From positions 1 through 28,870 of the IMG/VR virus record IMGVR_UViG_3300030060_001360: a stretch of DNA of 28,870 bases. One strand, written 5' to 3'. This document shows positions 1,781 through 25,113 of the stretch, piece after piece. Both the position numbers and the translations under genes were made by a program. The notes under the pieces were generated by a model, which was not told the DNA's origin, made no database searches, and was given only the letters and a program-made list of their open reading frames with translations. Position 1 is the first letter of the stretch. Every line of letters starts with the position of its first letter. The stretch is from a virus.

Positions 1781-2027
1781 ATGTGAGTGTGGGGAACACC
1801 AAAAAGAAATAAAAAAAATATCTATTGTTTATCGTGATAATAAATGGATAACAAAAGGTTCTGAATGTCCGTGTGGTAAATATATGGAAAGCGAACCACA
1901 AGAAGGAATGCCTAGTATAAAAAGAACAGAGGCATCGTTAAGTAAAAAAAAACGAGGCGACAAGTTATGGGATAGTGCAAAAGAAAAAATAATTGGTGAA
2001 CGTGGTATTAATGAGGACTTTAAATAA
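1767..2027 (+). CDS. Small zinc-ribbon-like protein, 86 aa
   Basis: The N-terminus has a CECG motif (Cys6, Cys8) and about 26 residues later CPCG (Cys34, Cys36), a CxC/CxC arrangement consistent with one Zn site of the FmdB/zinc-ribbon type. The rest is charged and Lys/Glu-rich (ASLSKKKRGDKLWDSAKEK) with no membrane segment. It overlaps the DUF3310-like gene by 14 nt. Its stop codon lies inside the first box of the putative promoter element at 2021. Function unknown; zinc ribbons of this size may bind nucleic acid or protein. Confidence 0.65.
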   Translation: MALYKCECGEHQKEIKKISIVYRDNKWITKGSECPCGKYMESEPQEGMPSIKRTEASLSKKKRGDKLWDSAKEKIIGERGINEDFK

Positions 2028-2052
2028 AAATTAATAAATTCTATTATAAAAT
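2021..2052 (+). promoter_or_regulatory. Recurring bipartite AT-rich element, copy 1 (candidate phage promoter)
   Basis: Box A TAAATAAA (2021-2028) and box B CTATTATA (2041-2048), with B starting exactly 20 nt after A as in the copies at 15208, 16351 and 18914. Box B ends 4 nt before the ATG of the ParB-like gene. If it is a promoter, the transcript would be leaderless or nearly so. Confidence 0.5.
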
Positions 2053-2775
2053 ATGAAAGTAAAAATAAACGAAATACATAGTAATGTAAAAAATCCTAGG
2101 GTCATAAAAAATGACAAATTTAAAAAACTGGTAAAATCCATAAAAGAATTTCCAGAAATGCTAGAGTTAAGACCTATTGTTGTAGATGAAAACAATTTAA
2201 TACTAGGTGGTAACATGAGGCATAAAGCATGTATAGAAGCAGGTTTAAAAGAAGTGCCAATAAAAATTGCAAAAGGGTTAACAATAGAACAAAAGCAAGA
2301 ATTTATAATAAAAGACAATGTTGGATATGGTGAATGGGATTGGGATATATTAGGTAACGAATGGCAAAGTAATGAGTTAGATGAATGGGGTTTAGATGTA
2401 TGGCAAGAAGAACCACAAGAGGATATTGAAAAATACACAGGTAAAATTGAAACACCTAAATATGAGCCAACTGGTGAAAAGCCAAAAGTAAATGAATTAT
2501 ATGATACAGAAAAGGTAGATAAAATAATAGACAAAATAAAGTCTTTGAAACTTAATAAAACAGAGGAAGCGTTTTTAATATATGCAGCATATAGACATAC
2601 AGTTTTTAATTACAAAAACATAGCTGAATATTATATACACTCTGACAAAGTCATACAAGAACTAATGGAAGATAGTGCGTTGGTTATAATAGATTTTGAA
2701 AAAGCAATTGAAGGTGGATATATAGCTTTAAATGAAAAAATAACATCACAATATATAGAAGACTATGGCGAATAA
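2053..2775 (+). CDS. ParB/Sulfiredoxin-fold protein, 240 aa
   Basis: Residues 1-75 form a ParB N-terminal (ParB/Srx-type) domain: an opening beta strand and NPR turn (KVKINEIHSNVKNPRVIKN), a helix, the strand RPIVVDENNLILGG, and the diagnostic GGNMRHKA box at residues 52-59. Phage members of this fold act as nucleases or NTP-dependent DNA clamps, or sit beside DNA-modifying enzymes. The C-terminal half (about 130-240) is a separate, unrecognised helical region; no methylase motifs are present, although many phage ParB proteins are fused to one. The gene overlaps the glycosyltransferase gene by 11 nt, so the two probably work together. It follows promoter-element copy 1. Whether the nuclease or CTPase activity is retained cannot be told from sequence alone. 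Confidence 0.8.
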   Translation: MKVKINEIHSNVKNPRVIKNDKFKKLVKSIKEFPEMLELRPIVVDENNLILGGNMRHKACIEAGLKEVPIKIAKGLTIEQKQEFIIKDNVGYGEWDWDILGNEWQSNELDEWGLDVWQEEPQEDIEKYTGKIETPKYEPTGEKPKVNELYDTEKVDKIIDKIKSLKLNKTEEAFLIYAAYRHTVFNYKNIAEYYIHSDKVIQELMEDSALVIIDFEKAIEGGYIALNEKITSQYIEDYGE

Positions 2776-3619
2776 AGAGTTTGCAACATTTATATTAACA
2801 TATGGTAGGGCAGAAAAAGTACATACATATGATACATTAAACAAATACAACTACACAGGTGATTTATATTTTGTTTGTTCTGATGATGATAAACAGGTAG
2901 ATAGATATAAAGAAATATACAAAGACAAAGTTATTGTTTTTAGTAAAAAAGATTATGCAGACAAGTTTGACATAGGTGATAATTTTAATGATGACAGAGT
3001 AGTAGTTTATGCTAGAAACGCTGTATTTGATATTGCAAGGGAATTGGGTTATGAATATTTTCTAGTACTTGATGACGATTATACAGAGTTTAGATACACA
3101 AGAGACCATAAACAACAATATGTAACTAAATTACGAAGGGTACAAAATTTAGATAAAATGTTTGGTCATCTTTTAGAGTATTACAAAAATACAAATGCAA
3201 AAACATTATGTATTGCACAGGGTGGTGATTTTATAGGTGGTGAAAATAGTAGCGTATTTACAAAAAAGCTATCCAGAAAAGCTATGAATTTTTTTATATG
3301 TTCTGTCAATAGGCCTTTTAAATTTATAGGTAGAATAAACGAAGATGTAAATACATATGTAAGATTAGGACAAACTGGTGATATATTTTTAACTATATGC
3401 GATTTAAGATTACAGCAATTAGATACACAAAGCAATACAGGTGGATTAACAGAATTTTATTTGGAAGGCGGTACATATGTTAAATCATTTTATACAGTTA
3501 TGTTTTCACCATCATCTGCTGTTATTAATTTAATGGGTAATAAATACAAAAGACTACACCACAGAATAAAATGGAACAATACAACACCAATAATATTAGA
3601 AGAAAAATATAAGAAATAA
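2765..3619 (+). CDS. Glycosyltransferase, TAGT (TET-associated) type
   Basis: A 284-residue protein with a GT-A glycosyltransferase layout: an N-terminal strand ATFILTYGRAEK (residues 7-18), a nucleotide-sugar half with YARNAVFDIARELGYEYFLV (82-101), and a DxD-type metal/sugar-nucleotide motif LDDDY (102-106). The acceptor half contains GRINEDVNTYVRLGQTGDIF (189-208), where GRINEDV is the signature I associate with the TET-associated glycosyltransferase family. Family knowledge (Iyer, Aravind and co-workers): these are predicted to attach sugars to hydroxymethylated pyrimidines in phage DNA. No signal peptide or membrane segment is present. The 11-nt overlap with the ParB-like gene and adjacency to terminase fit a DNA-modification role. 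No TET/JBP oxygenase or hydroxymethylase gene lies in this window, so the substrate is unknown. Confidence 0.75.
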   Translation: MANKEFATFILTYGRAEKVHTYDTLNKYNYTGDLYFVCSDDDKQVDRYKEIYKDKVIVFSKKDYADKFDIGDNFNDDRVVVYARNAVFDIARELGYEYFLVLDDDYTEFRYTRDHKQQYVTKLRRVQNLDKMFGHLLEYYKNTNAKTLCIAQGGDFIGGENSSVFTKKLSRKAMNFFICSVNRPFKFIGRINEDVNTYVRLGQTGDIFLTICDLRLQQLDTQSNTGGLTEFYLEGGTYVKSFYTVMFSPSSAVINLMGNKYKRLHHRIKWNNTTPIILEEKYKK

Positions 3620-3972
3620 TGGACAAAAGTAGACACATAAAAAAAGAAGCTATGCTAACTGCACTTGAAAATAGTTTAGGTGTGGTTACGGTAGCCTGTA
3701 AACAAGCAGACATACCACGTAGTACATACTACAAATGGATTAAAGAGGACAAAGAATTTGCAAAGCAGGTAAAAGAAATAGAAAACATTGCACTGGACTT
3801 TGCAGAAAGTCAATTACATACACAAATGAAAGGAGGTAGTACACCTGCAACAATATTCTATTTAAAAACAAAAGGCAAGAAACGTGGTTATATAGAAAGG
3901 TCAGAATTGGATTTAACATCTGGTGATGAGCCTGTAAAAATTAATGTAAACATTAAGGGTGTTGAATATTGA
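3619..3972 (+). CDS. terS: Terminase small subunit
   Basis: A 117-residue protein directly upstream of and overlapping (14 nt) the large terminase. Residues 8-45 form a helix-turn-helix (MLTALENSLGVVTVACKQAD then IPRSTYYKWIKEDKEFAK) typical of phBC6A51-like small terminases, which recognise the packaging site. The middle (45-75) is a helical oligomerisation segment ending in LHTQMKGGSTPATIFYLKTK, a pattern frequent in this family. The ATG starts on the last base of the glycosyltransferase stop codon (TAATGG at 3617-3622). Role: pac/cos recognition and loading of DNA onto TerL. Confidence 0.85.
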   Translation: MDKSRHIKKEAMLTALENSLGVVTVACKQADIPRSTYYKWIKEDKEFAKQVKEIENIALDFAESQLHTQMKGGSTPATIFYLKTKGKKRGYIERSELDLTSGDEPVKINVNIKGVEY

Positions 3973-5272
3973 AGCTAATTTTACACATACGCAAGAACAA
4001 GCAATAGAATATTTATTTGACAAAACAACAACAGAAATATTATTTGGCGGTGCAGCAGGTGGTGGTAAGTCATGGGTAGGTTGTAGTTGGTTAATATTAA
4101 TGTGCCTTAAATATCCTAAGACAAGGTATTTAATGGGTAGGTCAAAACTTGATAGTTTAAAAAAGACTACATTTAATACATTTTTAGAAGTTTGTGAAAC
4201 TTGGAACCTTAAAGCAGGTAAGCATTACAATTTTAATGGTGGTTCTAATATAGTAAGTTTTTACAATAAATCAGAAATAATACTAAAGGATTTATTTTTA
4301 TACCCATCAGACAGAAACTTTGACAATTTAGGTTCTTTGGAAATAACAGGGGCTTTTATAGACGAAGCAAATCAAATAACAGAAAAAGCCAAAAACATAG
4401 TAGCATCAAGAATGCGTTACAAATTAGATGAATTTAATCTAATACCAAAATTATTAATGACCTGTAACCCTGCAAAAAATTGGGTGTACACACAATATTA
4501 CAGACCATCAAAAGAAGGTAAACAAAAAACACATAGAAAATTTATACAAAGTTTGGTTGATGATAATGAATATATATCTAAATACTACAAAACACAATTA
4601 CAAACACTTGATGAGTTAAGCAAACAAAGACTATTATTTGGAAATTGGGAATATGATGCAAGTAAAGATAATTTAATTGAATATGATGCTATAATTAATA
4701 TGTTTGACATAAAAGGTGTTAATGGTGAAAAATACATAACTTGTGATGTAGCACGTTTTGGAAGCGACAGAACAGTTATAATGGTTTGGGAAGGGTTACA
4801 TATTACTTATATAAGAACACTGCTTAAATCGGCTGTAAATGATGTTGTGGACGAGGTTAGGCAATTACAACAAGAACATCAAATAAATTTAAGAAATATT
4901 ATAGTTGATGAAGATGGTGTTGGTGGTGGTGTAAAAGATTATTTACGTTGTCAAGGTTTTGTAAATAATGCAAGACCAATAAAAAAAGAAAACTACCAAA
5001 ATTTAAAAACACAATGCTATTATAAGTTAGCGGATTTAATAAACAAAGGGCAAATAGGAATAACTTGTAATGATGTAAATGTTAAAAACAATATAATTGA
5101 GGAGTGTGAACAAATAAGAACAAAAGATGCTGACAAAGATAATAAGCTACAAATTATACCAAAAGACACTATAAAAGATATTTTAGGTAGGTCACCAGAT
5201 TACGCAGATGCATTAGCTATGAGAATGTATTATGAAGTAGATGCAACTTTTGGAAGGTATTATGTACAATAA
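3959..5272 (+). CDS. terL: Terminase large subunit (packaging ATPase/nuclease)
   Basis: 437 residues with every hallmark of TerL. Walker A is FGGAAGGGKSW (29-39), Walker B is GAFIDEAN (131-138) with the catalytic Glu, and the coupling motif is LLMTCNP (165-171). A C-terminal RNase H-like nuclease has acidic residues in CDVARFGSD (Asp263, Asp270), IVDEDGVGGG (Asp317) and SPDYADALAM (Asp414, Asp417). The ATG is missing: translation must start at GTG 3959 or the adjacent TTG 3962, 14 or 11 nt inside terS, suggesting translational coupling. The protein packages DNA into the prohead through the portal and cuts it. A bidirectional hairpin terminator follows directly. Confidence 0.96.
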   Translation: MLNIEANFTHTQEQAIEYLFDKTTTEILFGGAAGGGKSWVGCSWLILMCLKYPKTRYLMGRSKLDSLKKTTFNTFLEVCETWNLKAGKHYNFNGGSNIVSFYNKSEIILKDLFLYPSDRNFDNLGSLEITGAFIDEANQITEKAKNIVASRMRYKLDEFNLIPKLLMTCNPAKNWVYTQYYRPSKEGKQKTHRKFIQSLVDDNEYISKYYKTQLQTLDELSKQRLLFGNWEYDASKDNLIEYDAIINMFDIKGVNGEKYITCDVARFGSDRTVIMVWEGLHITYIRTLLKSAVNDVVDEVRQLQQEHQINLRNIIVDEDGVGGGVKDYLRCQGFVNNARPIKKENYQNLKTQCYYKLADLINKGQIGITCNDVNVKNNIIEECEQIRTKDADKDNKLQIIPKDTIKDILGRSPDYADALAMRMYYEVDATFGRYYVQ

Positions 5273-5340
5273 AAAAAGGGGTTAGGCCCACACGTTTAAC
5301 CCACCCCTTTTTAAAATTACAACCAAGTAATTAACTAAAA
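5271..5340 (-). ncRNA. Candidate antisense small RNA, about 70 nt
   Basis: A - strand promoter match (5347-5376) would start transcription near 5340, and the hairpin at 5273-5312 with a seven-T run would end it near 5271. The product would be an unstructured 5' segment of about 28 nt followed by the terminator hairpin, with no ORF of note. The inference rests only on this promoter-terminator pairing; no RNA family is recognised. Confidence 0.25.
5273..5312 (+). terminator. Bidirectional intrinsic terminator after terL
   Basis: AAAAAGGGG (5273-5281) pairs with CCCCTTTTT (5304-5312). Inside it, further pairing between GGTTA and TAACC is possible. On the + strand the stem ends in five T. On the - strand it is followed by seven T (complement of 5271-5277), so it can stop transcription from either side. 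Confidence 0.8.
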
Positions 5341-5346
5341 ACGGTG

Positions 5347-5376
5347 CAAATATAGTACAATAAACTAAATAAACAA
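5347..5376 (-). promoter_or_regulatory. Bacteroidota-type promoter on the - strand
   Basis: Read on the - strand, TTG (complement of 5374-5376) is followed after 19 nt by TATATTTG (complement of 5347-5354), an exact TAnnTTTG -7 box, then CACC. The same TATATTTGCA core occurs in the + strand promoter at 25106. In such AT-rich DNA a chance match is not excluded. Confidence 0.4.
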
Positions 5377-5394
5377 TTTTTCTATATATATATT
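5366..5394 (+). promoter_or_regulatory. Degenerate copy of the bipartite AT-rich element
   Basis: TAAATAAA (5366-5373) is followed by CTATATATATA (5382-5392) and the ATG at 5395. The two boxes are those of the other copies, but the spacing is 16 nt rather than 20. It lies in the gap after the terL terminator, where a promoter for the tail block is expected. Confidence 0.35.
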
Positions 5395-6030
5395 ATGAAA
5401 GTCAAAATAAAAAAAGGCGAAAAAACAAAAACATATAATGTTGTTGAAAGTTGGGAAGACGTAACGCTTGAAAAATTCATGCAACTAAATATGAGTGAAA
5501 TTGACACACAGTCAAAAGAAGCATTAGAAGTTATTGCAGTATTATCAGATTTACCAAAAAATATAATTAAAAAATTATCATTACGTGATGTAACAAATTT
5601 ATTTGAGCGTTTAGGTAAAATAGATATACAACAAGTTTTAAGATGCACAACAATAATAGACAATGTTGAATACGGTATGCATCCAGATTTGTCAGAAATA
5701 ACATTAGGTGAATATGCAGATTTGGAAACATTTATGAGTAAAGATTTGCAAAAAAATTTACCAGAAATAATGGCAATACTATTTAGGCCAATAACAGCAA
5801 AAGATGGTGATGTATATACAATAGAAGCTTATGATGGTAATATAAAGATACGAGCCGAGAAAATGAAAAAAATGTCAGCAGAGCAAGTACAACAAGTGCT
5901 GGTTTTTTTTTGGACTTTCGTAAGAATATTTATAATGATTTTGCCGTTGTCTTTGGTAGAGGGGCAAAAGTTGAAGACGATGGAAAAATTCCTGAAACCT
6001 TCGCAAAAAAGTGGGGATGGTTTGGCGTAA
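5395..6030 (+). CDS. Tail-assembly chaperone-like protein, zero-frame product
   Basis: A 211-residue protein that starts the tail block. The N-terminus is small and basic (KVKIKKGEKTKTYNVV), followed by an acidic, helical, chaperone-like region (TLEKFMQLNMSE; ITLGEYADLETFMSKDLQKN) and the segment AEQVQQVLVFFW ending at residue 173. At that point a nine-T run (5903-5911) contains an in-register T TTT TTT heptamer. The zero frame then adds about 39 residues with a hydrophobic run (FVRIFIMILPLSLV) and stops at TAA 6028-6030, while the -1 frame continues for 87 codons. This short-plus-extended architecture is that of lambda G/GT and other tail-assembly chaperones. The tape measure, however, is about 7 kb downstream rather than adjacent, so the assignment is tentative. 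Confidence 0.6.
   Translation: MKVKIKKGEKTKTYNVVESWEDVTLEKFMQLNMSEIDTQSKEALEVIAVLSDLPKNIIKKLSLRDVTNLFERLGKIDIQQVLRCTTIIDNVEYGMHPDLSEITLGEYADLETFMSKDLQKNLPEIMAILFRPITAKDGDVYTIEAYDGNIKIRAEKMKKMSAEQVQQVLVFFWTFVRIFIMILPLSLVEGQKLKTMEKFLKPSQKSGDGLA
5904..5910 (+). other. Candidate -1 ribosomal slippery site U UUU UUU
   Basis: The zero frame reads CTG GTT TTT TTT TGG; the heptamer T TTT TTT sits exactly in X XXY YYZ register. A one-base backward slip moves ribosomes into the open frame that ends at 6173 and yields a fusion of about 259 residues. No strong downstream hairpin is obvious by eye. Confidence 0.55.
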
Positions 6031-6173
6031 TGCATAGGTTATGCAATCAAGACATAAGTAAATTAGGAGCAATTACTAAATTAAATTTATTAGAATGTTT
6101 AACATGGCTAACATACGAAACAGATTTAAATCAACAAAACAAAGTAAATTATGGTAGAAAACAAGTCGTATAA
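5910..6173 (+). CDS. -1 frame extension of the chaperone-like protein (87 codons)
   Basis: Open from TTG 5910 to TAA 6171-6173 in the -1 frame relative to the preceding gene. The stretch FAKKWGWFGVMHRLCNQD followed by AITKLNLLECLTWLTYETDL looks like genuine protein and resembles a conserved helical domain of flavobacterial phages. Its FAKKWGWF part lies within the region that also encodes the zero-frame product, so starting only at ATG 6030 would truncate it. Three readings are possible: a -1 frameshift fusion (preferred), reinitiation at ATG 6030 (TAATG with the zero-frame stop), which gives 47 aa, or one missing T in the homopolymer. It overlaps the next gene by 23 nt. Confidence 0.6.
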   Translation: MDFRKNIYNDFAVVFGRGAKVEDDGKIPETFAKKWGWFGVMHRLCNQDISKLGAITKLNLLECLTWLTYETDLNQQNKVNYGRKQVV

Positions 6174-6696
6174 TAATGTAACAAATTTTTTATGTAGATT
6201 AGGTGAATACCACGAACAGGTACATAGCGTATCTGTTGGTGATATTTTTCAAATAAATTTACAAAAGATGCAAAAGCTACCATTAATGCATATAAATCCT
6301 ACAAACGTAACAACTGGTGATAGTTCTTTGACATATAACTTTCAAATATTTATTTGTGATTTGGCAGATAATGATATGGCTAGTCAAACAAAGCAGCAAA
6401 GCGAATTGACAAAATTAATTAACCAAAAAAATAACGAACAAGAAATTTGGAATCAAACATTGGATATTACTACTGATATTATTGGTATGTTAAGACACTC
6501 GTCAAGACAATCACTAGCAGGTACAAATGATATTAATTTTCCAAAATATTTTACAACTGGTCAATTTACAATAGAACCATTTCAAGAACGATTTGACAAT
6601 TTATTATGTGGTTGGTCATTTAGTGTAGGTATACAGGTTATAGATGATTTTGACACTTGTAATATACCGGTAACAAATTTAGGTGCAGGGTACTAA
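6151..6696 (+). CDS. Tail-completion/terminator-like structural protein, 181 aa
   Basis: A conserved-looking phage structural protein. The region 47-75 (INPTNVTTGDSSLTYNFQIF and ICDLADNDM) is beta-rich. A polar helix with NEQEIWNQTLDITTDIIGML follows, and the C-terminus FTIEPFQERFDNLLCGWSFS plus VGIQVIDDFDTCNIP is again beta-rich. This alpha/beta layout and the position between a chaperone-like gene and an HK97 gp10-like gene suggest a tail-terminator or neck protein, but I cannot name the family. ATG 6151 lies inside the preceding -1 frame. Its stop TAA overlaps the ATG of a 21-codon ORF (TAATG). Confidence 0.6.
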   Translation: MVENKSYNNVTNFLCRLGEYHEQVHSVSVGDIFQINLQKMQKLPLMHINPTNVTTGDSSLTYNFQIFICDLADNDMASQTKQQSELTKLINQKNNEQEIWNQTLDITTDIIGMLRHSSRQSLAGTNDINFPKYFTTGQFTIEPFQERFDNLLCGWSFSVGIQVIDDFDTCNIPVTNLGAGY

Positions 6697-6761
6697 TGAA
6701 ATTTAAAATAGGTAAATATAAAATAACAATTGGTTTTTTTAAAATAACAATACATATATGA
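6696..6761 (+). CDS. Tiny ORF, 21 aa, with internal repeat
   Basis: ATG at 6696 shares its A with the upstream stop (TAATG), and the stop TGA at 6759-6761 overlaps the next ATG (ATGA). The peptide is MKFKIGKYKITIGFFKITIHI, with a strand-like [FY]KI[GT]I repeat seen three times and a strongly basic, beta-prone character. Tight coupling on both sides argues that ribosomes pass through it, but it may be only a coupling device. Function unknown. Confidence 0.4.
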   Translation: MKFKIGKYKITIGFFKITIHI

Positions 6762-7114
6762 ATTACGAAGATTTATTAGAAAAGCTAGAAGCAATTAGTA
6801 TTAATTTGGAAAGTTACAGCGATTATCCAGAAAGTGCATCTAATAATGCAAAAAGAGCAATTAAATATAAAAAAGAAAATGGTAGTTCTTGTGGCACTAA
6901 GGTAGGTTGGACACGAGCAAATCAACTAGCAAATAAAAAACCAATTAGTCGTGATACAATAGCACGTATGGCATCATTTAAAAGACATCAGCAACATAAA
7001 GACGTACCATATTCAGAAGGTTGTGGTGGTATTATGTGGGATGCCTGGGGTGGTTCATCTGGTGTAAATTGGGCAATAAATAAATTAAAACAAATAGATA
7101 AAAAGAAAAAATAA
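6758..7114 (+). CDS. Conserved small phage domain protein (Cys/Trp/His motif), 118 aa
   Basis: After a short acidic helix, the protein has a strikingly motif-dense core: YPESASNNAKRAIKYKKENG (residues 23-42), SSCGTKVGWTRANQLANKK, PISRDTIARMASFKRH, and GCGGIMWDAWGGSSGVNWAI. I recognise this as a domain carried by many phage head-associated proteins, sometimes fused to protease- or portal-like proteins, but I cannot name it. Conserved Cys, His, Arg and Asp residues would allow a metal site or enzymatic role. The C-terminus is Lys-rich (KQIDKKKK). It is coupled upstream by ATGA and followed 2 nt later by the next structural gene. Role: probably virion assembly; inference. Confidence 0.65.
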   Translation: MNYEDLLEKLEAISINLESYSDYPESASNNAKRAIKYKKENGSSCGTKVGWTRANQLANKKPISRDTIARMASFKRHQQHKDVPYSEGCGGIMWDAWGGSSGVNWAINKLKQIDKKKK

Positions 7115-7116
7115 TT

Positions 7117-7566
7117 ATGGCAGATTTAGTAACAACAATTAGCGAAAGTGTAACACTCAATGGTGCGTTACGTGGCTCTACAAATTCAGTAACAACAACA
7201 GGAATTACAGATGTTATGGAACGTATATTGACTTGCGCACATTCAAACACAACAACAATAGCAGTATTTAATTCTACACCACATGGTGCAGCAGGAGCAT
7301 TAGATTTGGAAAATTGTAAATATATACGAGTAACAAATTTAAGTACAGACCAGGTAGTTGATTTAGCAGTAGTAACAGAAAATACAAACTACCAAGTTGT
7401 ATTAACAGCAGGTAATTCTCATATACTTTGTCAAGCAGATACTGCAGCAATTGGTGAAACAGATACAACTCCTGCTTTTGGTACTTTAGAAGATGTTGTA
7501 ACACTACAAGTTAGACCAAGAGCAACAACAGATGTACAGGTAGAATTATTTGTTGGATTAATATAA
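7117..7566 (+). CDS. Beta-rich structural protein, 149 aa
   Basis: A Thr/Val/Ala-rich protein with alternating strand-like segments (YIRVTNLSTDQVVDLAVVT; VVTLQVRPRATTDVQVELFV) and very few Lys residues, unlike its early neighbours but typical of virion proteins. There is no signal peptide. Its stop overlaps the next ATG (TAATGG). It resembles small capsid-decoration or tail-ring proteins in composition only; no family is recognised. The gene lies between the small Cys/Trp domain protein and the gp10-like protein. Confidence 0.6.
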   Translation: MADLVTTISESVTLNGALRGSTNSVTTTGITDVMERILTCAHSNTTTIAVFNSTPHGAAGALDLENCKYIRVTNLSTDQVVDLAVVTENTNYQVVLTAGNSHILCQADTAAIGETDTTPAFGTLEDVVTLQVRPRATTDVQVELFVGLI

Positions 7567-8165
7567 TGGAAGAAGAAGAATACATATCTGAATTACAATC
7601 TTATTTTGAAGATTTTGCAGACAAAGTAGTTGAGCAAACAAAAGAGGCACTATATGATGCAAAAGATGGTAATACAAATTTAGGAGAAAGCATAAGAGCG
7701 GAGGTTGTATATAATGAAGAAGAAGGCAAAATGTCAATTATGTTTTATATGCTAAACTATGGAACATATGTAAATCAAGGTGTGTCTGGTAATGAATCGT
7801 CAGGTTTTCAAAGATATACAAATTGGAGGGGTGATGAGGTAAATTCTGATTTTGCATATTCTGATAAAATGCCACCTGTAGCTGTTATTGAAGAATGGGT
7901 TAAGAAAAAAGGAATAAAAGGCAGAAAGTCTTTAAAGAAATACAGAAAAAATAAAAACAGTACAATAAAAGGTGCAGGTCAGTTTATAACAAACAAGTCA
8001 TTGGCTTTTGCAATATCCAAGTCAATACAAAAGAAGGGAATAAAAAGCACAAGTTTTTTTACAAAACCTTTTGGTAGCTTGTATTCAGAATTAAAGGAAG
8101 GCATAGCGCCAATATTAAAAAACAAAATACAAGATATGTATTTAACAACATTTACAAAATTTTAG
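7566..8165 (+). CDS. HK97 gp10-like tail-completion protein, 199 aa
   Basis: The N-terminus is an acidic helix (EEEEYISELQSYFEDFADKV). The central part has the features I associate with gp10-like neck/tail-completion proteins: MLNYGTYVNQGVSG (residues 61-74), then MPPVAVIEEWVKKKGIKG, then LAFAISKSIQKKGIKSTSFF and TKPF near the C-terminus. Such proteins join the head-tail connector to the tail tube. Length is somewhat above the usual 120-160 aa, accounted for by a Lys-rich insertion (SLKKYRKNKNSTIKG). It is coupled by TAATG to the upstream gene and lies 3 nt before the next. Confidence 0.65.
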   Translation: MEEEEYISELQSYFEDFADKVVEQTKEALYDAKDGNTNLGESIRAEVVYNEEEGKMSIMFYMLNYGTYVNQGVSGNESSGFQRYTNWRGDEVNSDFAYSDKMPPVAVIEEWVKKKGIKGRKSLKKYRKNKNSTIKGAGQFITNKSLAFAISKSIQKKGIKSTSFFTKPFGSLYSELKEGIAPILKNKIQDMYLTTFTKF

Positions 8166-8168
8166 AAT

Positions 8169-13188: not shown

Positions 13189-13199
13189 AATAAAAAATT

Positions 13200-15203
13200 A
13201 TGGCAGAAGAAACTATAGAATTAAAAATTGATGCAGATGTATCTGGAGCAAAACAAGAGGTTACAGCATTAAAAGAAGAATTAAAAGCGACAAAGCGAGA
13301 GGTAAAAGAATTAAACACAAGTAATAAAGAGCTAGACGCAGGTAACGAAAAATTAGCCACTAGTGTATTAGATATTGCACAGAATTACACCTCTATGGGA
13401 GGTTCCATAAGGCGTGTACGTGGTCTTGTTGGTAAATTAGTACCAACATTTAAAATGCTTTTTAAAACAATAAAGCTTGGTATTGCATCTACAGGGATAG
13501 GAGTTCTAGTTCTTGCATTAGGCGCTGTATTTACCGCAATGATGAGTACAGAGAAAGGTGGTAAGGCATTAAAAGCTATAATGAATGGTATTGGTGAGGT
13601 GGTAAACTTTATAATAAAACCATTGCAAATAGCGGGTGACGCAATACTTAGTTTATTTGGTGTAGAAGATACAAACTCGATTGATTCAGCAGAAAAATTA
13701 GCAAGTGAATTAGCTAACATTGAAAGTGCTATGGCTGCAATTAATCTTCAACGTTCCAAAGACAAAGTGCAGTTAGATGCAAATCAAAGAGTTATTGATG
13801 ATACCACAAAATCAGAAAAAGAAAGACTGAAAGCAGCAGAAGATAACTTTAAAATAAATAAAAAGAATAATCAAGATGAATTAGCCGCTTTACAAGAAAC
13901 ATTAAAAGCGCAAACTAAACATTTAAAACAAAAAGAAGCTGATTTAAGGCATGAAAAAAGGCGAGAGGCAGAACACGGAAGAAGTGCAAAAAGAAAAGAA
14001 GAAGAACAAAATGTTAATAAAGCATTAAAAAACCAACAAGCAACATTAAAGAAAATATCTGATTTACAAGGGCAATTAATTATTAACGAAAGAAATTATG
14101 GTGATGAAGTTAAAAGAATACAATCTTTTCGAAAACAAGAAATGCAAGAAATTATACAAAAAGCATTAGATAATATTAAAAAACGAAAAGAAGCTGAAAA
14201 AAAGGCTAATGAACTAAGGATTGCAGCTAATAAACAAGTAAATGCTGTAATTGATAAATTAACAGACGAATTGGCGGTTAGCGCATTAAAAACAGAGGAA
14301 GAAAAAGAGTTGAAAAAACTAGAAATTCAAAAGAAAAACGAGTTGGCAAGTATTAACAACTCTAAAGCAAATAAAGCGGTAAAAGATGCAGCTATATTAT
14401 TATTAGATGAAAAATTTAAAGAACAAGAAGCTGCGATAACTAAAAAATATGATGATATTGACCAAGAAAAAAAGGATAAGGAAGCGGAAGATTTAAAAAA
14501 ATTAAGAGAAGAAAACCTACTTGCAGAAGAACAAGACGAAAACAAAAGACAATTAAAATTGCTTGAATTACAAAAAACAGCAGAATTAGAGCAAATTGCA
14601 AAACATGAAAATTTTGCTGAATTGAAACTTGAAATCGATAAAAAATATAAAAGACTTGAAGCGGAGGTTGACAAGAAAGCAAAAGCAGACCAGGAGGAAA
14701 GAGACCAAGAAGCGCATGACGCTAAAATGGGTATGGCTGTGGATGGTATGAATTTAATAAAAGAAATAGCAAATTTTGAAGCAGACCAAGCTGTTGCAAA
14801 AGACAAAGAAATAGAAAAGTCACAAACAAGAGGTGCTAAAATAGCAAAAGCAGTTGCATTAGCACAAGCAGCAATAACAGGTACAGAAGGTGTTATGAAT
14901 ACTTTTACAAGCGCAGGAAAAAGTCCTTTAGCTAGTGTAATACCTGGCTATCAATTTATACAAGCAGGATTAGCAGCAGGTTTTGCTGCACAAAATATTA
15001 GAAAAATAGCAGCAGGTGAACCACCAAGTGACACAGGAGGTGATGGTGGTGTAGACACAACCCCTGCACCGGCTATGATGGGAGGAGCATTTACATTAGG
15101 TGAAGCAGCAGCACCAGAACCAGTACGTGCTTTTGTAGTAACGGATGAAATGACTAACTCGCAAAATCAGTTAGCAAATATTAGGCGTAGAGCCACAATT
15201 TAA
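13200..15203 (+). CDS. Tape measure protein, 667 aa
   Basis: The N-terminal 90 residues are coiled coil (TALKEELKATKREVKELNTS). They are followed by a hydrophobic, membrane-compatible segment GIASTGIGVLVLALGAVFTA (residues 94-113), then a very long Lys/Glu/Ala-rich coiled coil (about 160-540) with segments such as KEKERLKAAEDNF-type heptads and EEEKELKKLEIQKKNELASI. The C-terminal 120 residues are Ala/Gly-rich (AQAAITGTEGVMNTF; GLAAGFAAQNIRKIAAGEPP). This architecture, and the location in the tail block, identify it. It sets tail length and may contact the host membrane during DNA entry. By the usual rule a tail of about 100 nm is predicted. The gene ends just before promoter-element copy 2. 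Confidence 0.85.
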   Translation: MAEETIELKIDADVSGAKQEVTALKEELKATKREVKELNTSNKELDAGNEKLATSVLDIAQNYTSMGGSIRRVRGLVGKLVPTFKMLFKTIKLGIASTGIGVLVLALGAVFTAMMSTEKGGKALKAIMNGIGEVVNFIIKPLQIAGDAILSLFGVEDTNSIDSAEKLASELANIESAMAAINLQRSKDKVQLDANQRVIDDTTKSEKERLKAAEDNFKINKKNNQDELAALQETLKAQTKHLKQKEADLRHEKRREAEHGRSAKRKEEEQNVNKALKNQQATLKKISDLQGQLIINERNYGDEVKRIQSFRKQEMQEIIQKALDNIKKRKEAEKKANELRIAANKQVNAVIDKLTDELAVSALKTEEEKELKKLEIQKKNELASINNSKANKAVKDAAILLLDEKFKEQEAAITKKYDDIDQEKKDKEAEDLKKLREENLLAEEQDENKRQLKLLELQKTAELEQIAKHENFAELKLEIDKKYKRLEAEVDKKAKADQEERDQEAHDAKMGMAVDGMNLIKEIANFEADQAVAKDKEIEKSQTRGAKIAKAVALAQAAITGTEGVMNTFTSAGKSPLASVIPGYQFIQAGLAAGFAAQNIRKIAAGEPPSDTGGDGGVDTTPAPAMMGGAFTLGEAAAPEPVRAFVVTDEMTNSQNQLANIRRRATI

Positions 15204-15207
15204 AAAT

Positions 15208-15239
15208 CAAATAAATATTAATTAAATCTATTATATATT
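15208..15239 (+). promoter_or_regulatory. Recurring bipartite AT-rich element, copy 2
   Basis: CAAATAAA (15208-15215) and CTATTATATA (15228-15237), with 20 nt from box start to box start, are followed 2 nt later by the ATG of the protease gene. Together with the ATG the 35-mer aligns without gaps to the copies at 2021 and 18914. It lies between the tail and head blocks, a sensible place for a promoter. Confidence 0.55.
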
Positions 15240-15950
15240 ATGCCTTGTGAAAAATGCGATAACGGAAAATACAAATGGGGGAAAACAGGAAGCTGTGAAT
15301 ATGAAACGGTAGCTGAATGTGAAGAAGCCAACAAAGATTACTATGCTAACTTAAAAACAACTCGTATTGTAGAGTTAATCATAGAAGAAGACAATCAAGA
15401 GTTAGCCATAGATGCTATTAGTCTTGTAAACAGTCCAGCAATAGAACAAGATTTTGTCTATTTTGGTAAGGAAAAAAACAATTTAACATTTGCAAAAGTA
15501 GATGAAGAAAAACGTATGTTAGTTTCACCTGCTCTAATACCTAACAAGCAGATATTTAGGTATGACCCTAACACGGATTCTGAATATTATGTTTATTTTA
15601 GTCCAGAAACAGTTAGAAAAGCAAGTGAATTGTATTTAAAACATAATAACCATCATAAAGCTACATACGAGCATCAAGACAGGGTTAGCGGTGTTTTGAC
15701 GGTTGAATCTTGGGTAAAAGAAGGAGACCAAGACAAATCTAAATTATACGGCTACGACTTGCCTAACGGAACATGGTTTGTAAAGATGAAAATAACTAAT
15801 GATGAATTATGGTCACGTATAAAAGATGGCGAATTGCGTGGTTTAAGCATAGAAGGATATTTTGCAGATAAGTTTGAGGCTATGCAACAAAGAAAACCAA
15901 CAGATGCAGAAATATTGTCTGCATTAAATGAAATTTTAAAAACAAAATAA
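15240..15950 (+). CDS. XkdF-type prohead serine protease (Peptidase_S78_2-like)
   Basis: 236 residues. The N-terminus carries a small Cys motif, CEKCDNGKYKWGKTGSCEYE (Cys3, 6, 18, then Cys27), possibly a Zn-bound extension. The protease core (about 85-210) matches the XkdF family: RMLVSPALIPNKQIFRYDPN, YYVYFSPETVRKASELYLKH, HHKATYEHQDRVSGVLTVES, GTWFVKMKITND and LRGLSIEGYF. By analogy with HK97-type proteases the His in TYEH and the Ser in LSIEGYF are candidate catalytic residues. The role is to cleave the scaffold and activate capsid maturation. It is the first gene of the head block and starts 2 nt after a putative promoter. Confidence 0.82.
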   Translation: MPCEKCDNGKYKWGKTGSCEYETVAECEEANKDYYANLKTTRIVELIIEEDNQELAIDAISLVNSPAIEQDFVYFGKEKNNLTFAKVDEEKRMLVSPALIPNKQIFRYDPNTDSEYYVYFSPETVRKASELYLKHNNHHKATYEHQDRVSGVLTVESWVKEGDQDKSKLYGYDLPNGTWFVKMKITNDELWSRIKDGELRGLSIEGYFADKFEAMQQRKPTDAEILSALNEILKTK

Positions 15951-15951
15951 T

Positions 15952-16329
15952 ATGACAAAAAAAAGTAAATTCTTTGCAGAATTAAAAAAGGAAAACAACA
16001 TTAAAAAATTTAATGTAAAAGAAATTAAGTTAAATAGAATACAAGACATCAAAGACTTATTAAGATTTGAAAGTGAAATGAGTGATGCTAAAGGACTCTT
16101 AGATGATATTGAGGCATTATCCGATAACTTTTATGGCGCATATAAGAATTTAGAAGAAATGATAGCAACAGCAGAAGAGGAGTTAATGGAATTAGCAATG
16201 GAATTAGAAGCTATAGGTGTAGACAGACCAAGCGAACTTGAAGAATTAAGAGACACAATAGACAGGCAATATGACGAGTTGTTTGCATTAGAAGACAGAG
16301 CAAGATTTTACAATATAGTACTAAATTAA
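15952..16329 (+). CDS. Coiled-coil protein between protease and scaffold, 125 aa
   Basis: A highly charged helical protein: NRIQDIKDLLRFESEMSDAK, LLDDIEALSDNFYGAYKNLE, then MIATAEEELMELAMELEAIG and LEELRDTIDRQYDELFALED. It starts 1 nt after the protease stop, so it is cotranslated. No Cys, no membrane segment and no named family. Position suggests a role in prohead assembly, for example as an accessory scaffold, but this is inference from context and coiled-coil content only. Confidence 0.6.
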   Translation: MTKKSKFFAELKKENNIKKFNVKEIKLNRIQDIKDLLRFESEMSDAKGLLDDIEALSDNFYGAYKNLEEMIATAEEELMELAMELEAIGVDRPSELEELRDTIDRQYDELFALEDRARFYNIVLN

Positions 16330-16350
16330 AATAATATGACACTTTAAAAT

Positions 16351-16392
16351 CAAATAAAAATAAAACAAATCTATTTAATAAAAAAAGAACCT
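16351..16392 (+). promoter_or_regulatory. Recurring bipartite AT-rich element, copy 3
   Basis: CAAATAAA (16351-16358) and CTATTTAATA (16371-16380) keep the 20-nt box spacing, and the flanking AAAATCAAATAAA is shared with copy 2. Here the ATG (16393) is 22 nt after the start of box B rather than 12. The element therefore keeps its own geometry while its distance to the start codon varies, as expected of a promoter. Confidence 0.5.
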
Positions 16393-17251
16393 ATGGACAT
16401 TAAAGAACAAATACTAGTAGCTTTGGGATTAAACGACAAAACTATCTTGGCAAGCGAAAAGCGAAGATGGAACAATTTTTGTATCTACTGCTGATGAATT
16501 ACAAGCAGGGGTAGATATATCTGTACTAACTGAAGATGGCACTACGATATTATTACCTATCGGAACATATAAAACTGATACAGGTGTAACATTTAGAGTA
16601 GAAACTGAAGGTGTGGTAGCAGAGGTTATGGAAACAGAAACGGAAGAGGTCGTTACAGACGAAGAAGTTGAAATGGCAGAAGAAGCTGACGTACAAGACT
16701 GGGAAGGGATGGAAAAAAGAATTAAAAACCTTGAAGATGCTATTGCAGACATTAAAGCTAAAATGGGTGATAATAGTGAAACAGTAGAAATGGCTGACGA
16801 AGAAGCAACAGAAGATGTTGTAACAGAAGTTGTAGAAGAAGTAGAAAAAGCAGTTGAAGAAATTGCAGCAGCTATTGATGATGCTACACCAGAAGAGGTA
16901 ACACCAGAATTGGCAGCAAAAGCAGCAGAAGTTGCAGTTGAAGTAATGCAAGAAAAAGCTGAAGAAGTTGCACAAACTGAAATGGCTGATGAAGATGAAG
17001 ATGAAGAAAAAAAGAAAAAAGAAGAGGAGGAAGAAGACGAGGAAAAAATGAAGAAAAAGAAGAAAAAAGAATACAGTAAATTGTCAAAACTAGAAAAGGA
17101 AAACAAAAGGTTAAAAGAAAAACTTAAAAGAACACCTGCTGATACTCCTTTAAATACAAATAAATTTAGTAGCGACAGACCTGTTTTATCAAATAGAGAC
17201 TATAAAAGATTGTCTAGCAGAGACAAATTCTTGTACAATTTAAATAAATAA
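16393..17251 (+). CDS. Scaffolding protein, reading frame interrupted near 16440
   Basis: Frame A starts at ATG 16393 (MDIKEQILVALGLNDK) and stops at TGA 16492-16494. Frame B opens after a TAA at 16430-16432, and its sequence KLSWQAKSEDGTIFVSTADE continues naturally through ISVLTEDGTTILLPIGTY to the end at 17251. Dropping one A from the AAAA at 16438-16441 would give a single 285-residue protein. The intact product has a small beta-rich N-terminal domain, an acidic Glu/Ala/Val-rich middle, a Glu/Lys low-complexity block (about 16980-17070) and a Lys-rich C-terminus. Position before the capsid gene and composition fit a scaffold cleaved by the XkdF protease. The break may be a sequence error, a mutation or a +1 programmed shift; without it only an internal GTG (16613) gives an in-frame start. 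Confidence 0.7.
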
Positions 17252-17266
17252 TAATAATAATAATAA
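17249..17266 (+). repeat. Tandem TAA x6 between scaffold and capsid genes
   Basis: Six consecutive TAA triplets beginning with the scaffold stop codon. They give repeated in-frame stops and an A-rich leader ahead of the capsid ATG at 17279. This is a simple repeat with no other evident role. Confidence 0.6.
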
Positions 17267-17278
17267 AAAAGAAAAAAA

Positions 17279-18196
17279 ATGGCATTTAACGTAACATCAA
17301 ACTATGCAGGAAAGGCAGCAGGATTTTATATTTCTGCAGCACTTAAACAAGCTACATCATTGGATTATTTAACAATGATTGAAAACGTAAAATACAAAAG
17401 TAACATACAACAACAGGCAGCAAGTTCAGTTGTAAGGAATGCGACTTGTGATTTTACTGACCACGGTACATTGGCACTTACAGAGAAAGTATTAGAGCCA
17501 AAGAACCTACAAATTAACCTAGACCTTTGTAAATCTAATTTATTAGAGTCTTGGGAGGCAATGGAAATGAGAGCAGGTGCAGGAGCACCACCACCACCAT
17601 CATTTGAAGACTATGTAATTTCTTACATGGGTGAAATTATTGCAGAAGCAACTGAAAATTCTATATGGAGTGGAGTTGCAGCTACAAATGGTGAATTTGC
17701 AGGATTTTTAGGAACAGCAACTGGTTACTTATTACCAGGTGTTGATGGAACAGTAATACAATCATCTGCTTCTGGAGCATATACAGCAGGTAACATTATT
17801 GCTAACCTACAAACATTAACAGCAGATATGGCTGCAAATGTTTCTCCAATATTAAGAAAAGAGGATTTACATATTTACATGAACCCAAAAACTTATGCAT
17901 TCTATATTTCAGCAGTATCGACATTAGGATATGTAAACGCTTATAACATGAATGGTGACTATGAGCCAGTTTTTGAAGGTTATAAAATTGCAGTATGCCC
18001 TGGAATGGTTGACAACCAATTAGTTGCGGCTACAAAATCTAACTTATTCTATGGTACTGACCTTTTAAGTGATGCTACTAGAATTACTATGTTAGATATG
18101 GCTAACCTAGATGGGTCAGATAACATGAGATTAGTTGCAAGATATTCTGGTGGTGTTCAAACTGGAGTTGGAGCTGACATTGTTAGACAATCATAA
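17279..18196 (+). CDS. Major capsid protein (HK97 fold)
   Basis: 305 residues directly after the scaffold and close to the protease, the standard capsid position. The N-terminal arm is helical (SNYAGKAAGFYISAALKQAT). The centre contains an Ala/Gly/Pro-rich loop (GAGAPPPPSFEDYVISYMGE) followed by the helix IIAEATENSIWSG and the P-domain-like LHIYMNPKTYAFYISAV. The C-terminus ends with MRLVARYSGGVQTGVGADIV, typical of HK97-like capsid proteins of Bacteroidota phages. GC content and codon choice appear slightly higher than in flanking genes, fitting high expression. A stable UUCG-loop hairpin follows its stop codon. No delta domain is visible, so a separate scaffold is required, consistent with the preceding gene. 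Confidence 0.82.
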   Translation: MAFNVTSNYAGKAAGFYISAALKQATSLDYLTMIENVKYKSNIQQQAASSVVRNATCDFTDHGTLALTEKVLEPKNLQINLDLCKSNLLESWEAMEMRAGAGAPPPPSFEDYVISYMGEIIAEATENSIWSGVAATNGEFAGFLGTATGYLLPGVDGTVIQSSASGAYTAGNIIANLQTLTADMAANVSPILRKEDLHIYMNPKTYAFYISAVSTLGYVNAYNMNGDYEPVFEGYKIAVCPGMVDNQLVAATKSNLFYGTDLLSDATRITMLDMANLDGSDNMRLVARYSGGVQTGVGADIVRQS

Positions 18197-18213
18197 TAAA
18201 ACAAATTAACAGA

Positions 18214-18235
18214 AGTGGGTGCTTCGGCACTCACT
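18214..18235 (+). terminator. Stable hairpin with UUCG loop after the capsid gene
   Basis: AGTGGGTGC (18214-18222) pairs with GCACTCACT (18227-18235), nine pairs including one G-U, closed by the loop TTCG. No T run follows (CCTTTAACC), so it may be a weak terminator, an attenuator or a 3'-end stabiliser of the abundant capsid mRNA. Confidence 0.55.
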
Positions 18236-18260
18236 CCTTTAACCTTAAAAAATAAATAAC

Positions 18261-18848
18261 ATGGCATGTACGGCATTAACAAAAGGTAGAGGCCTCGATT
18301 GCAACAGAATTGCAGGGGGTGTTAAAAATGTTTACTTTTCAGTATATTCAGATTTTGGAAGTACTGATTGGGCATATGATGGCACACACCCACAAGAAAT
18401 TGATACAATTGATTGGAATAGTAAAAGTATTTATAAATATGTAATGCCTTTAGGCGTTGCATCTGTTACAGATACAATTACAGGTTCTACCGAAAACGGC
18501 ACAATATTTTACACTCCTACTGTAAATATTATGCTAAACAAATTAACAAAAGAAGACCAAAACCAAATAAAACTGTTAGGACAAACTAAAGTGAGAATTT
18601 TAGTTGAATTAAATGCAAAATTAGCTACAGGACATGACGCTATTTTAGCATTAGGTTTTGAAAATGGAATGGATTTAAATACAGGAACTATGGATAGTGG
18701 GGCTGCTTTTGGGGATAGAAATGGATACACTCTGACCTTCACAGGAATGGAGTCAAGACCAATGGCTTTCCTAGAAGACTACACTACATCTATATTCGAT
18801 AATAGTGGGTTCACTAACAAAGGAACACCATTTGTAGTAAGTACATAA
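18261..18848 (+). CDS. Probable major tail (tube) protein, 195 aa
   Basis: A beta-rich protein opening with ACTALTKGRGLDCNRIAGGV, then VYKF-like IYKYVMPLGVASVTDTITGS and ENGTIFYTPTVNIMLNKLTK, and ending with GDRNGYTLTFTGMESRPMAF. This layout (N-terminal Cys-containing segment, repeated strands, NGTxFY and NGYxLTFTG motifs) is one I associate with tube-like proteins of Bacteroidota phages. It is followed by a strong terminator, fitting a highly expressed virion protein. The alternative is a capsid-associated or decoration protein given its place next to the capsid gene. It has its own spacing from the capsid gene through the UUCG hairpin. Confidence 0.55.
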   Translation: MACTALTKGRGLDCNRIAGGVKNVYFSVYSDFGSTDWAYDGTHPQEIDTIDWNSKSIYKYVMPLGVASVTDTITGSTENGTIFYTPTVNIMLNKLTKEDQNQIKLLGQTKVRILVELNAKLATGHDAILALGFENGMDLNTGTMDSGAAFGDRNGYTLTFTGMESRPMAFLEDYTTSIFDNSGFTNKGTPFVVST

Positions 18849-18879
18849 TTTTATTGGTAGTTTTCATTATATTTTGATT

Positions 18880-18903
18880 AAGGTGGTTTTTTACCACCTT
18901 TTT
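18880..18903 (+). terminator. Intrinsic terminator
   Basis: AAGGTGGT (18880-18887) and ACCACCTT (18893-18900) form a perfect 8-bp stem with a five-T loop, followed by TTT. It closes the capsid/tail-tube unit, and only 10 nt separate it from promoter-element copy 4. Confidence 0.85.
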
Positions 18904-18913
18904 CATTTATAAG

Positions 18914-18945
18914 CAAATAAAAATCAAGTTTTTCTATTATATAGT
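18914..18945 (+). promoter_or_regulatory. Recurring bipartite AT-rich element, copy 4
   Basis: CAAATAAA (18914-18921) and CTATTATATA (18934-18943), with the same 20-nt spacing and a 2-nt gap to the ATG at 18946. It lies directly downstream of an intrinsic terminator, so transcription must restart here. This is the best single argument that the element is a promoter. Confidence 0.6.
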
Positions 18946-19425
18946 ATGATACAAGCAATAACAGAAACTGATTTAACGACATATCTACAAACAGAAGACA
19001 ATAGAATAGATACATCAGTCGGTTCTGACAAAATAAGGTATTTAGTAAAATTTACTAATGACATGGATAATTCAGTACAATACGCTTATTCTAATGTGCA
19101 TTTAGTATACGATAGATATACAAAATTTAACTTTACTTATAACGCAACACCAGATGTTTATGAAGGTAAAATAAATTTTAAACCATCAGGATATTACAAA
19201 TACGAAGTTTATGAAGTCTCCTGGACTGGTGCAGTCGCTATAAGCGCAGGTAACGCACCAATTAATGAAAATGATGTATTACCTATAGGTGCTACACATG
19301 GCGTGGTACAGGGGCTTGTAACAAAGGGTAAAATGTATGTTGCAGACAAAGCAGGTACACAGCAAATATCATATAACCAACATACGGAAACAGAAGGAAC
19401 AAATTATATATATTACGGAAATTAA
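18946..19425 (+). CDS. Structural protein, 159 aa
   Basis: Not assigned to a named family. It is beta-rich, with RYLVKFTNDMDNSVQYAYS, YKYEVYEVSWTGAVAISAGN and a C-terminal GVVQGLVTKGKMYVADKAGT. The last part resembles a short strand-turn unit common in appendage-base or decoration proteins. No Cys or membrane segments. It heads a unit that starts after a terminator and candidate promoter, and is followed 11 nt later by another small structural gene. Virion component by inference. Confidence 0.55.
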   Translation: MIQAITETDLTTYLQTEDNRIDTSVGSDKIRYLVKFTNDMDNSVQYAYSNVHLVYDRYTKFNFTYNATPDVYEGKINFKPSGYYKYEVYEVSWTGAVAISAGNAPINENDVLPIGATHGVVQGLVTKGKMYVADKAGTQQISYNQHTETEGTNYIYYGN

Positions 19426-25082: not shown

Positions 25083-25113
25083 TCTGTTAATATCTTTTTT
25101 TTTGTTATATTTG
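25083..25113 (+). promoter_or_regulatory. Bacteroidota-type promoter for the early replication operon
   Basis: TCTG (25083-25086, one mismatch to TTTG), a 19-nt spacer, then TATATTTG (25106-25113), an exact TAnnTTTG -7 box. The start would be near 25120, giving a short leader to ATG 25134. It stands in the longest intergenic gap of the window, ahead of eleven same-strand genes, and should be read by the host housekeeping sigma factor. Confidence 0.7.

Follow-up and report, generated by a model that had tools for sequence, protein, structure and literature searches.

A phage genome known solely from metagenomic sequence offers few clues to the timing of its transcription. In the 28,870-nucleotide stretch of viral DNA analyzed here (the window; IMG/VR record IMGVR_UViG_3300030060_001360), an AT-rich element composed of two boxes recurs at the starts of gene blocks, which raises the question of what the element does and which factor reads it. 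The original prediction had suggested a phage-specific promoter class. This is the best-supported reading, the element being strand-specific, bipartite, present at five gene-block starts, and unlike the host consensus TAnnTTTG. The probable recognizing factor, which that prediction missed, is most likely the sigma factor encoded by ORF 474-1070.

The element and its copies in the window

The four predicted copies of (C/T)AAATAAA were recovered at 2021, 15208, 16351, and 18914; in each, the start of CTATT lies 20 nt from that of the first box. As had been claimed, copies 2021, 15208, and 18914 form a gapless alignment of 35-mers in which the ATG has offset 32, while the copy at 16351 keeps its box spacing and has its ATG at offset 42 instead. 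On the other hand, the degenerate copy placed at 5366 with 16-nt spacing proved to be misregistered. In the register of this fifth copy, AAACTAAA starts at 5362 and CTATATATAT at 5382, which is the normal offset of 20 nt; a strong copy in the 5362 register occurs in 42 of 52 orthologous upstream regions of relatives, and the 16-nt spacing was rejected because of this conservation. The relevant features are as follows:

474..1070, + strand: ORF of the predicted sigma factor, 198 aa (sigma2-like residues 1-89, sigma4 helix-turn-helix (HTH) residues 127-197)
2021..2050, + strand: element 1 (late-start), TAAATAAA-N12-CTATTATAAA; before the ParB-like/terminase block (ATG at 2053), with its upstream box overlapping the previous ORF's stop codon
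5279..5302, + strand: terminator-like hairpin, after the terminase gene and before element 2
5362..5391, + strand: element 2, AAACTAAA-N12-CTATATATAT; TAC gene at 5395
15208..15237, + strand: element 3, CAAATAAA-N12-CTATTATATA; ahead of the XkdF-type protease gene at 15240
16351..16380, + strand: element 4, CAAATAAA-N12-CTATTTAATA; ahead of the MDIK ORF 16393-17251, with the ATG 42 nt from box 1; the major-capsid-like gene at 17279 comes after this ORF
18880..18900, + strand: terminator-like intrinsic hairpin, directly before element 5
18914..18943, + strand: element 5, CAAATAAA-N12-CTATTATATA; upstream of ORF 18946, in the block leading to the portal gene
25084..25113, + strand: promoter-like site of host type (Bacteroidota primary sigma), CTG-N19-TATATTTG; ahead of 25134, the first early ORF

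Exact matches to the element number four in the window, against a mean of 0.03 in dinucleotide-preserving shuffles, none of which reached four. The proposed weight-matrix scan against shuffled sequence placed the four copies far above all other sites of the window. With a matrix built from relatives only, they score 25.7-33.6 bits (elements 1, 3, 4, and 5: 25.7, 33.6, 28.8, and 32.7 bits, respectively), the next-best place in the window scores 6.4 bits, the reverse strand does not exceed 4.7 bits, and shuffles contain 0.005 hits above 18 bits on average. Element 2 scores 16.5 bits with the refined matrix. A site at 1802, inside ORF 1767-2027, scores 17.2 bits with the refined matrix and is best taken as a background match.

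With regard to host-type signals, the -7 box of TAnnTTTG is absent from all five elements, in line with the earlier claim, and instead occurs where the early block begins. In relatives, the early-block region is enriched for TTG located 19-20 nt before TAnnTTTG. Sigma70-like sites (TTGACA/TATAAT) show no excess (106 in 20 kb versus 105.8 in shuffles), and a TTTAAA/TATTAT match of sigma70 type overlapping element 1 is within background.

Conservation of the five sites among relatives

The comparison set consisted of the window phage and 38 near-complete relatives. These relatives measure about 28-31 kb, 19 of them have terminal repeats, and 25 were picked by TerL or portal only. The element occurs at the same five gene-block starts in 34-38 of the 39 genomes per site: 34 for element 1, 37 for element 2 (a count that includes two mis-anchored cases), 38 for element 4, and 37 for element 5. 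In orthologous upstream regions, it was found in 35/50 for element 1, 25/29 for element 3, and 26/35 for element 5. By comparison, the upstream regions of 36 other genes contain it once in ~1,180. Multiple bipartite sites with fixed spacing are found at late gene blocks and none at early genes. Hits in relatives are strongly oriented (213 forward versus 3 reverse), and the offset between boxes is 20 in 130 of 140 pairs when spacing is left free, in a test whose matrix was itself built at that spacing. The most divergent relative, G023, has a sigma factor (38% identical) and is without a recognizable element; no replacement motif was found in it. A search of a genome collection matched two metagenome-assembled contigs only. 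In total, 577 contigs were confirmed by the sigma search alone.

The intrinsic terminator noted before the copy at 18914 corresponds to the terminator-like hairpin at 18880-18900. A hairpin of this kind lies at most 80 nt upstream of element 5 in 32/37 genomes, compared with 2/444 control gene starts. The hairpin before element 2 is not general in relatives (1/35), and coupling of terminator and promoter was rejected as a general rule, being true of element 5 only and not of the other four.

These data bear on two of the alternative explanations. The genome has a G+C content of 31% and the box letters are mostly A/T, so that chance matches in AT-rich DNA might be suspected; nevertheless, the probability of this explanation is negligible, and it was rejected on the basis of the matrix scores, the shuffles (4 copies versus 0.03 expected), and the recurrence of these five positions, each in 34-38 of 39 genomes. 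A signal acting at the RNA level, which would serve translation initiation by Bacteroidota ribosomes that do not use Shine-Dalgarno sequences, is very improbable too. It would account for the ATG at a fixed 32 nt in many copies, and adenines before AUG are known to aid initiation in flavobacteria (PMC6847099), but the distance to the ATG ranges over 30-62 nt across sites (36-61 nt for element 4) while the box spacing stays fixed, which also upholds the earlier view that the element is not just a ribosome-binding context. Moreover, the element is missing before some 36 genes, among them those for major capsid and portal, and the late-start site persists where the gene behind it has been swapped, the TerS/TerL module being non-homologous.

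A predicted sigma factor and its covariation with the downstream box

ORF 474-1070 shares the genome with the sites, is located before element 1, and has a counterpart in 38/38 near-complete relatives. From sequence profiles and structural models, its product is predicted to be a divergent ECF-like sigma factor, which would bind core RNA polymerase and initiate at cognate promoters. The TIGR02937 sigma70-ECF model matches it with E=1.1e-6 (28.4 bits, under the curated cut-off of 42.9), and 45/45 aligned homologues match at E<=0.01, the best of them at 1e-11. Further matches were to Pfam sigma70 region 4 and to PHROG sigma families (E 1e-5 to 3e-3). The AF2 model has its best PDB fold match in 6dv9_F, ECF sigma L (E=2.2e-4, prob 1.00), and the whole-chain model was aligned with SigL over 180 columns. 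The modelled region 4 resembles that of E. coli sigmaE in the region 4/-35 DNA structure 2h27 (66 columns, TMt 0.84, rmsd 1.7); together with the Pfam match, this identifies a sigma4 HTH for which -35 binding is predicted. Region 2 is weak by sequence, with a Pfam Sigma70_r2 match in 1/45 members; its isolated model (pLDDT 90) matches ECF sigmas with a weak E of about 4-8, the match to SigL having TMq 0.54-0.61 and E of about 5-7. Region 4 alone was aligned in a sequence-only profile comparison with E. coli RpoE. No relative was detected in named phages by tblastn, and a PDB sequence search yielded no significant relative.

Across relatives, a single residue of this protein varies in step with one part of the element. 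The downstream box changes jointly at all sites of one genome, and the agreement of variants within genomes is 0.90 versus 0.64 when permuted (dereplicated, 0.87 versus 0.65; p=0.0002). Arg at sigma residue 76 pairs with CTATT, while Asn, Tyr, Thr, or His pairs with TATATT, TATATA, or TACATT; CT is found at 97% of sites for the 93 Arg76 sigmas and at 0% for the 13 sigmas with Asn/Tyr/Thr/His. On a tree computed without residues 73-79, four independent co-changes of residue 76 and the box were counted versus 0.27 expected (0/20,000 random placements as high, P<5e-5), and residue 76 is the top of all columns by shared changes. Exceptions are an R76 lineage (L099/G015) with mixed boxes and the K76 lineages, which are also mixed. 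Divergence of the downstream box follows that of the sigma factor more than structural-gene divergence would explain (partial r 0.36, p=0.003); for the upstream box, no such relation was observed (partial r 0.09, p=0.22).

Very likely, the element serves this phage group as its late promoter, and host core RNA polymerase reads it together with the ORF 474-1070 sigma. Promoter activity, its timing, the transcript starts, and recognition by the phage sigma are inferred from these computed features. In a rival reading, a host alternative sigma, or the host primary sigma plus a phage activator, reads the sites while the phage protein serves otherwise; flavobacteria do carry several ECF sigmas and sigma54 (PMC9723704). 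This is unlikely: the element does not resemble TAnnTTTG, the box correlates with the phage sigma more than with structural proteins, and its changes follow the phage residue in four independent lineages, with which a host factor is not expected to co-vary. Slightly less probable still is that the element works as an operator bound by a phage activator or repressor, perhaps by the ORF 474-1070 protein itself if this is an HTH regulator and not a sigma. The strongest part of the protein is indeed the HTH, which matches YlxM/UPF0122 models as well; nevertheless, the full-length model has its matches among ECF sigmas, every member is recognized by the sigma superfamily model, and the element is asymmetric and confined almost entirely to one strand, its two boxes lying ~20 bp apart like -35 and -10.

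Proposed late transcription and comparison with known systems

According to the favored promoter reading, the five elements probably activate the late (structural) genes of this phage, an uncultured marine one with Bacteroidota-type hosts. Briefly, the host primary sigma would transcribe the early block from the TAnnTTTG promoter near 25.1 kb, and transcription would run through the replication genes until, past the contig junction, it reaches the sigma gene. The phage sigma would then fire five YAAATAAA-N12-CTATTATATA promoters, which precede the packaging, tail-chaperone, protease, scaffold/capsid, and portal blocks. In these promoters, region 4 would touch YAAATAAA as a -35-like box and region 2 would touch TCTATT(ATATA) as a -10-like box, with residue 76 near the upstream edge of the latter. 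Since the ATG follows the second box by only 2-3 nt at many sites, transcripts there should be leaderless or nearly so; a near-zero leader is unusual in flavobacteria (PMC9723704, PMC6847099), which counts against this reading. The fuller picture, a clade whose own ECF-like sigma controls late genes, with specificity repeatedly rewritten at residue 76, five promoters moving jointly, and late mRNAs starting on the start codon or a few nt from it, is moderately probable.

The analysis offers a regulatory map for a marine phage group known solely from metagenomes (hundreds of contigs) and a proposed function for a conserved hypothetical gene, and the motif lets late operons be called in such contigs. 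In addition, natural sigma variants with matching promoter variants make joint specificity change of sigma and promoters directly testable.

By analogy, the system would be a phage-encoded sigma/late-promoter regulon like that of Salmonella phage 7-11, whose sigma SaPh711_gp47 reads late promoters GTAAtg-(16)-aCTA (PMC8948821). As proposed, the two systems share a phage-encoded sigma containing region 4, late promoters of bipartite form ahead of several gene blocks, host sigma promoters for the early genes, and a sigma gene first reached from early promoters (PMC8948821). They differ in box sequences and host phylum, the present group comprising ~29 kb Bacteroidota-type phages with five promoters. 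It was predicted in the 7-11 study that more phage sigma/promoter pairs would be found (PMC8948821), and the present case fits. The tailed phage phiEco32 also combines a phage sigma (phi32_gp36) with cognate middle/late promoters, tAATGTAtA (PMC4331800, PMC8948821); however, these are single-element promoters and that sigma lacks region 4, whereas the window sigma has region 4 and an upstream box. Bacterial ECF sigmas (TIGR02937; Mtb SigL, E. coli RpoE) share the sigma2-linker-sigma4 layout by profile and fold, while the window sigma is highly divergent, phage-encoded, and paired with an A/T-rich -35-like box; no anti-sigma partner was identified for it.

Neither sigma nor element was found in Flavobacterium phage 11b, yet it is nearest by TerL, which is consistent with exchange of the terminase module. 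The nearest cultured phages are Nonlabens (Persicivirga) P12024S/L (portal 32%, MCP 27%), which encode sigma-70 region 2 proteins (gp33/gp35), annotated as hypothetical with a Pfam note. The gene lies just before the terminase, the same place as the window sigma, to which its product is distantly related (profile E 1.4e-4). P12024S carries the motif AAAACAAA-N12-(C)CGTTAAT with the same geometry, 31-33 nt before six gene starts; its downstream box is CGTTAATATA, compared with CTATTATATA in the window phage.

Conserved elements at gene-block starts

The bipartite AT-rich element YAAATAAA-N12-CTATT is present at 2021, 15208, 16351 and 18914 of the window, as originally noted, compared with a mean of 0.03 copies in shuffled windows. 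With a weight matrix trained on relatives alone, these four copies score 25.7-33.6 bits and the rest of the window at most 6.4. A fifth, degenerate copy had been placed at 5366 with 16-nt spacing; the copy exists, but it begins at 5362 and keeps the usual 20-nt offset. Upstream regions of orthologues of 41 window genes were scanned across relatives.

Element sites in the window, with strong sites among orthologous upstream regions and genomes carrying the site (genome counts include 2 TAC and 8 protease sites that the anchor rule had classed as "extra")
2021, ParB (late start): 35/50 regions, 34/39 genomes
5362, TAC: 42/52 regions, 37/39 genomes
15208, protease: 25/29 regions, 35/39 genomes
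16351, MDIK ORF: 4/6 regions, 38/39 genomes
18914, MIQ ORF: 26/35 regions, 37/39 genomes

The remaining 36 genes yielded a single strong site in some 1,180 upstream regions altogether, and the element was absent before orthologues of the sigma gene and early genes. The 160 relative loci contain 57 forward copies of the exact gap-12 pattern and no reverse ones, with just 0-4 forward matches at neighbouring gaps. Box spacing is constant while the distance to the ATG varies from 30 to 62 nt; the spacing test is partly circular, as the matrix was built at the tested spacing, which does not apply to the gap count. The late-start site is kept even where another ParB/TerS/TerL module sits behind it. 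This distribution, fixed spacing with variable ATG distance, and survival of the module swap bear out the earlier view that the element is not merely a ribosome-binding context, and fit a conserved five-site regulon of promoters rather than a translation signal. A non-homologous terminase/ParB module, lying between the sigma and TAC genes, appears to have taken the place of the usual one in the near-complete relatives G011-G014, G017, G021, G022, G025, G029, G030, G032, G034, G035, G037 and G038, and its front, with the element retained, is likely a module-exchange boundary.

The window, an IMG/VR record of 28,870 bases, carries, in order, replication genes, the sigma-like gene, ParB-like and terminase genes, tail, protease, capsid-like, portal and phosphoesterase genes. 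The nearest named phages, which have Bacteroidota hosts, are Flavobacterium phage 11b (TerL, 53% identity) and Nonlabens phage P12024S (portal 32%, MCP 27%), and a flavobacterial host is inferred. Viral metagenomes are rich in relatives. Direct terminal repeats in 19 of the 38 near-complete relatives indicate a genome size of ~28-31 kb; at the junction of the window a few hundred bases are apparently missing. ParB-like and glycosyltransferase-like proteins (2053-3619) open the first late block, a pair suggestive of DNA modification; the latter (PHROG beta-glucosyl-HMC-alpha-glucosyltransferase) is rare (4/39 genomes).

Probable sigma factor and downstream box

Single-sequence matches of ORF 474-1070 to sigma region 4 are weak; TIGR02937 (sigma70-ECF) is matched by 45/45 aligned homologues. 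In the AF2 model (pLDDT 78) the linker is disordered; the best-matching PDB entry is Mycobacterium tuberculosis SigL (E 2.2e-4, prob 1.00), and most of the next ones are other ECF sigmas. The modelled region 4 superposes on the E. coli sigmaE region 4/-35 DNA structure (TMt 0.84), and isolated region 2 (pLDDT 90) is SigL-like (TMq 0.54-0.61) at a non-significant E-value. The gene is present in 38/38 near-complete relatives, 25 of which were selected by terminase or portal only.

The downstream box changes in concert among the sites of a genome.

Divergent downstream boxes
G005: TACATT at 5/5 sites
G021, G022: TATATT at 5/5 sites each
G020: CC(C/T)TTT-type
G018: TATATA

Within-genome agreement at motif positions 20-21 is 0.90 versus 0.64 permuted (dereplicated, 0.87 versus 0.65, p=0.0002). 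Downstream-box distance tracks sigma distance after removal of structural-protein distance (r 0.36, p=0.003); upstream-box distance shows no such correlation. Among 110 distinct sigmas, 93 carry Arg76 and go with CT at 97% of sites, 13 carry Asn, Tyr, Thr or His76 and go with CT at none, and the four with Lys76 have mixed boxes; this larger set is not fully independent of the discovery, because 38 of its genomes are those in which column 76 first drew attention. On a tree excluding sigma residues 73-79, losses of Arg76 and CT share a branch four times (expected 0.27; 0/20,000 random placements reached four), with modest support (0.65) for one of the four; two Arg-only changes and one CT-only change are unshared. 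Residue 76 ranks first among all sigma columns for shared changes. It sits at the DNA-binding end of sigma2, where two predicted helices are briefly interrupted (74-77), and may correspond to the ECF specificity loop or to region 2.4.

In G023 (L291/L292), the most divergent relative, sigma is 38% identical and the five elements are not recognisable, which may reflect a further change of promoter specificity. In the N76 lineage (G021, G022, L134 and L164), a candidate sixth element of TATATTATTGA or TATATTATTAC type (15-19 bits) lies in the early genome part, outside the five usual places.

Proposed late transcription and parallels

Host-type TTG-N19/20-TAnnTTTG promoters open the early block in most relatives; the window has
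25084-25113: early-block host-type promoter-like site, CTG-N19-TATATTTG.

On the best reading, early genes would be transcribed via host sigma, and the phage sigma would then redirect host core polymerase to the five late promoters. In phages 7-11 and phiEco32, promoter element and transcript start are 6-9 bp apart (PMC8948821); thus TCTATT, if the -10 core, would put the start at or beside the ATG at 32-nt sites, predicting leaderless or near-leaderless late mRNAs there. In F. psychrophilum, leaderless transcripts account for only 5.5% of the mRNAs mapped (PMC9723704). The proposed scheme resembles that of phage 7-11, whose sigma contains region 4, whose late promoters are bipartite and whose early promoters are of host type; the present group differs in sigma lineage, boxes and host group. 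Caution is advised by 7-11 itself, whose in silico late promoters (PMC4331800) differed from the later experimental motif (PMC8948821). No prior account of this scheme was found in the literature searched, mostly outside subscription journals.

In P12024S (L323), gp33, whose annotation mentions sigma-70 region 2 and which weakly matches the sigma profile (E 1.4e-4), directly precedes terminase, like the window sigma gene. Six AA(A/C)(A/C)AAA-N10-14-CGTTAAT sites lie 31-33 nt before gene starts (opposite strand 0; shuffles 0.03).

P12024S motif AAAACAAA-N12-(C)CGTTAAT, before gene-block starts
2998-3031
5379-5412
21248-21280
23929-23961
25168-25201
26769-26802

In P12024S a weaker variant of the motif, TCGTTACTATA, is located ahead of gene 179. 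P12024L carries the same sigma gene. In the cultivable P12024S, sigma gene and motif look like the same arrangement as here, differing in specificity.
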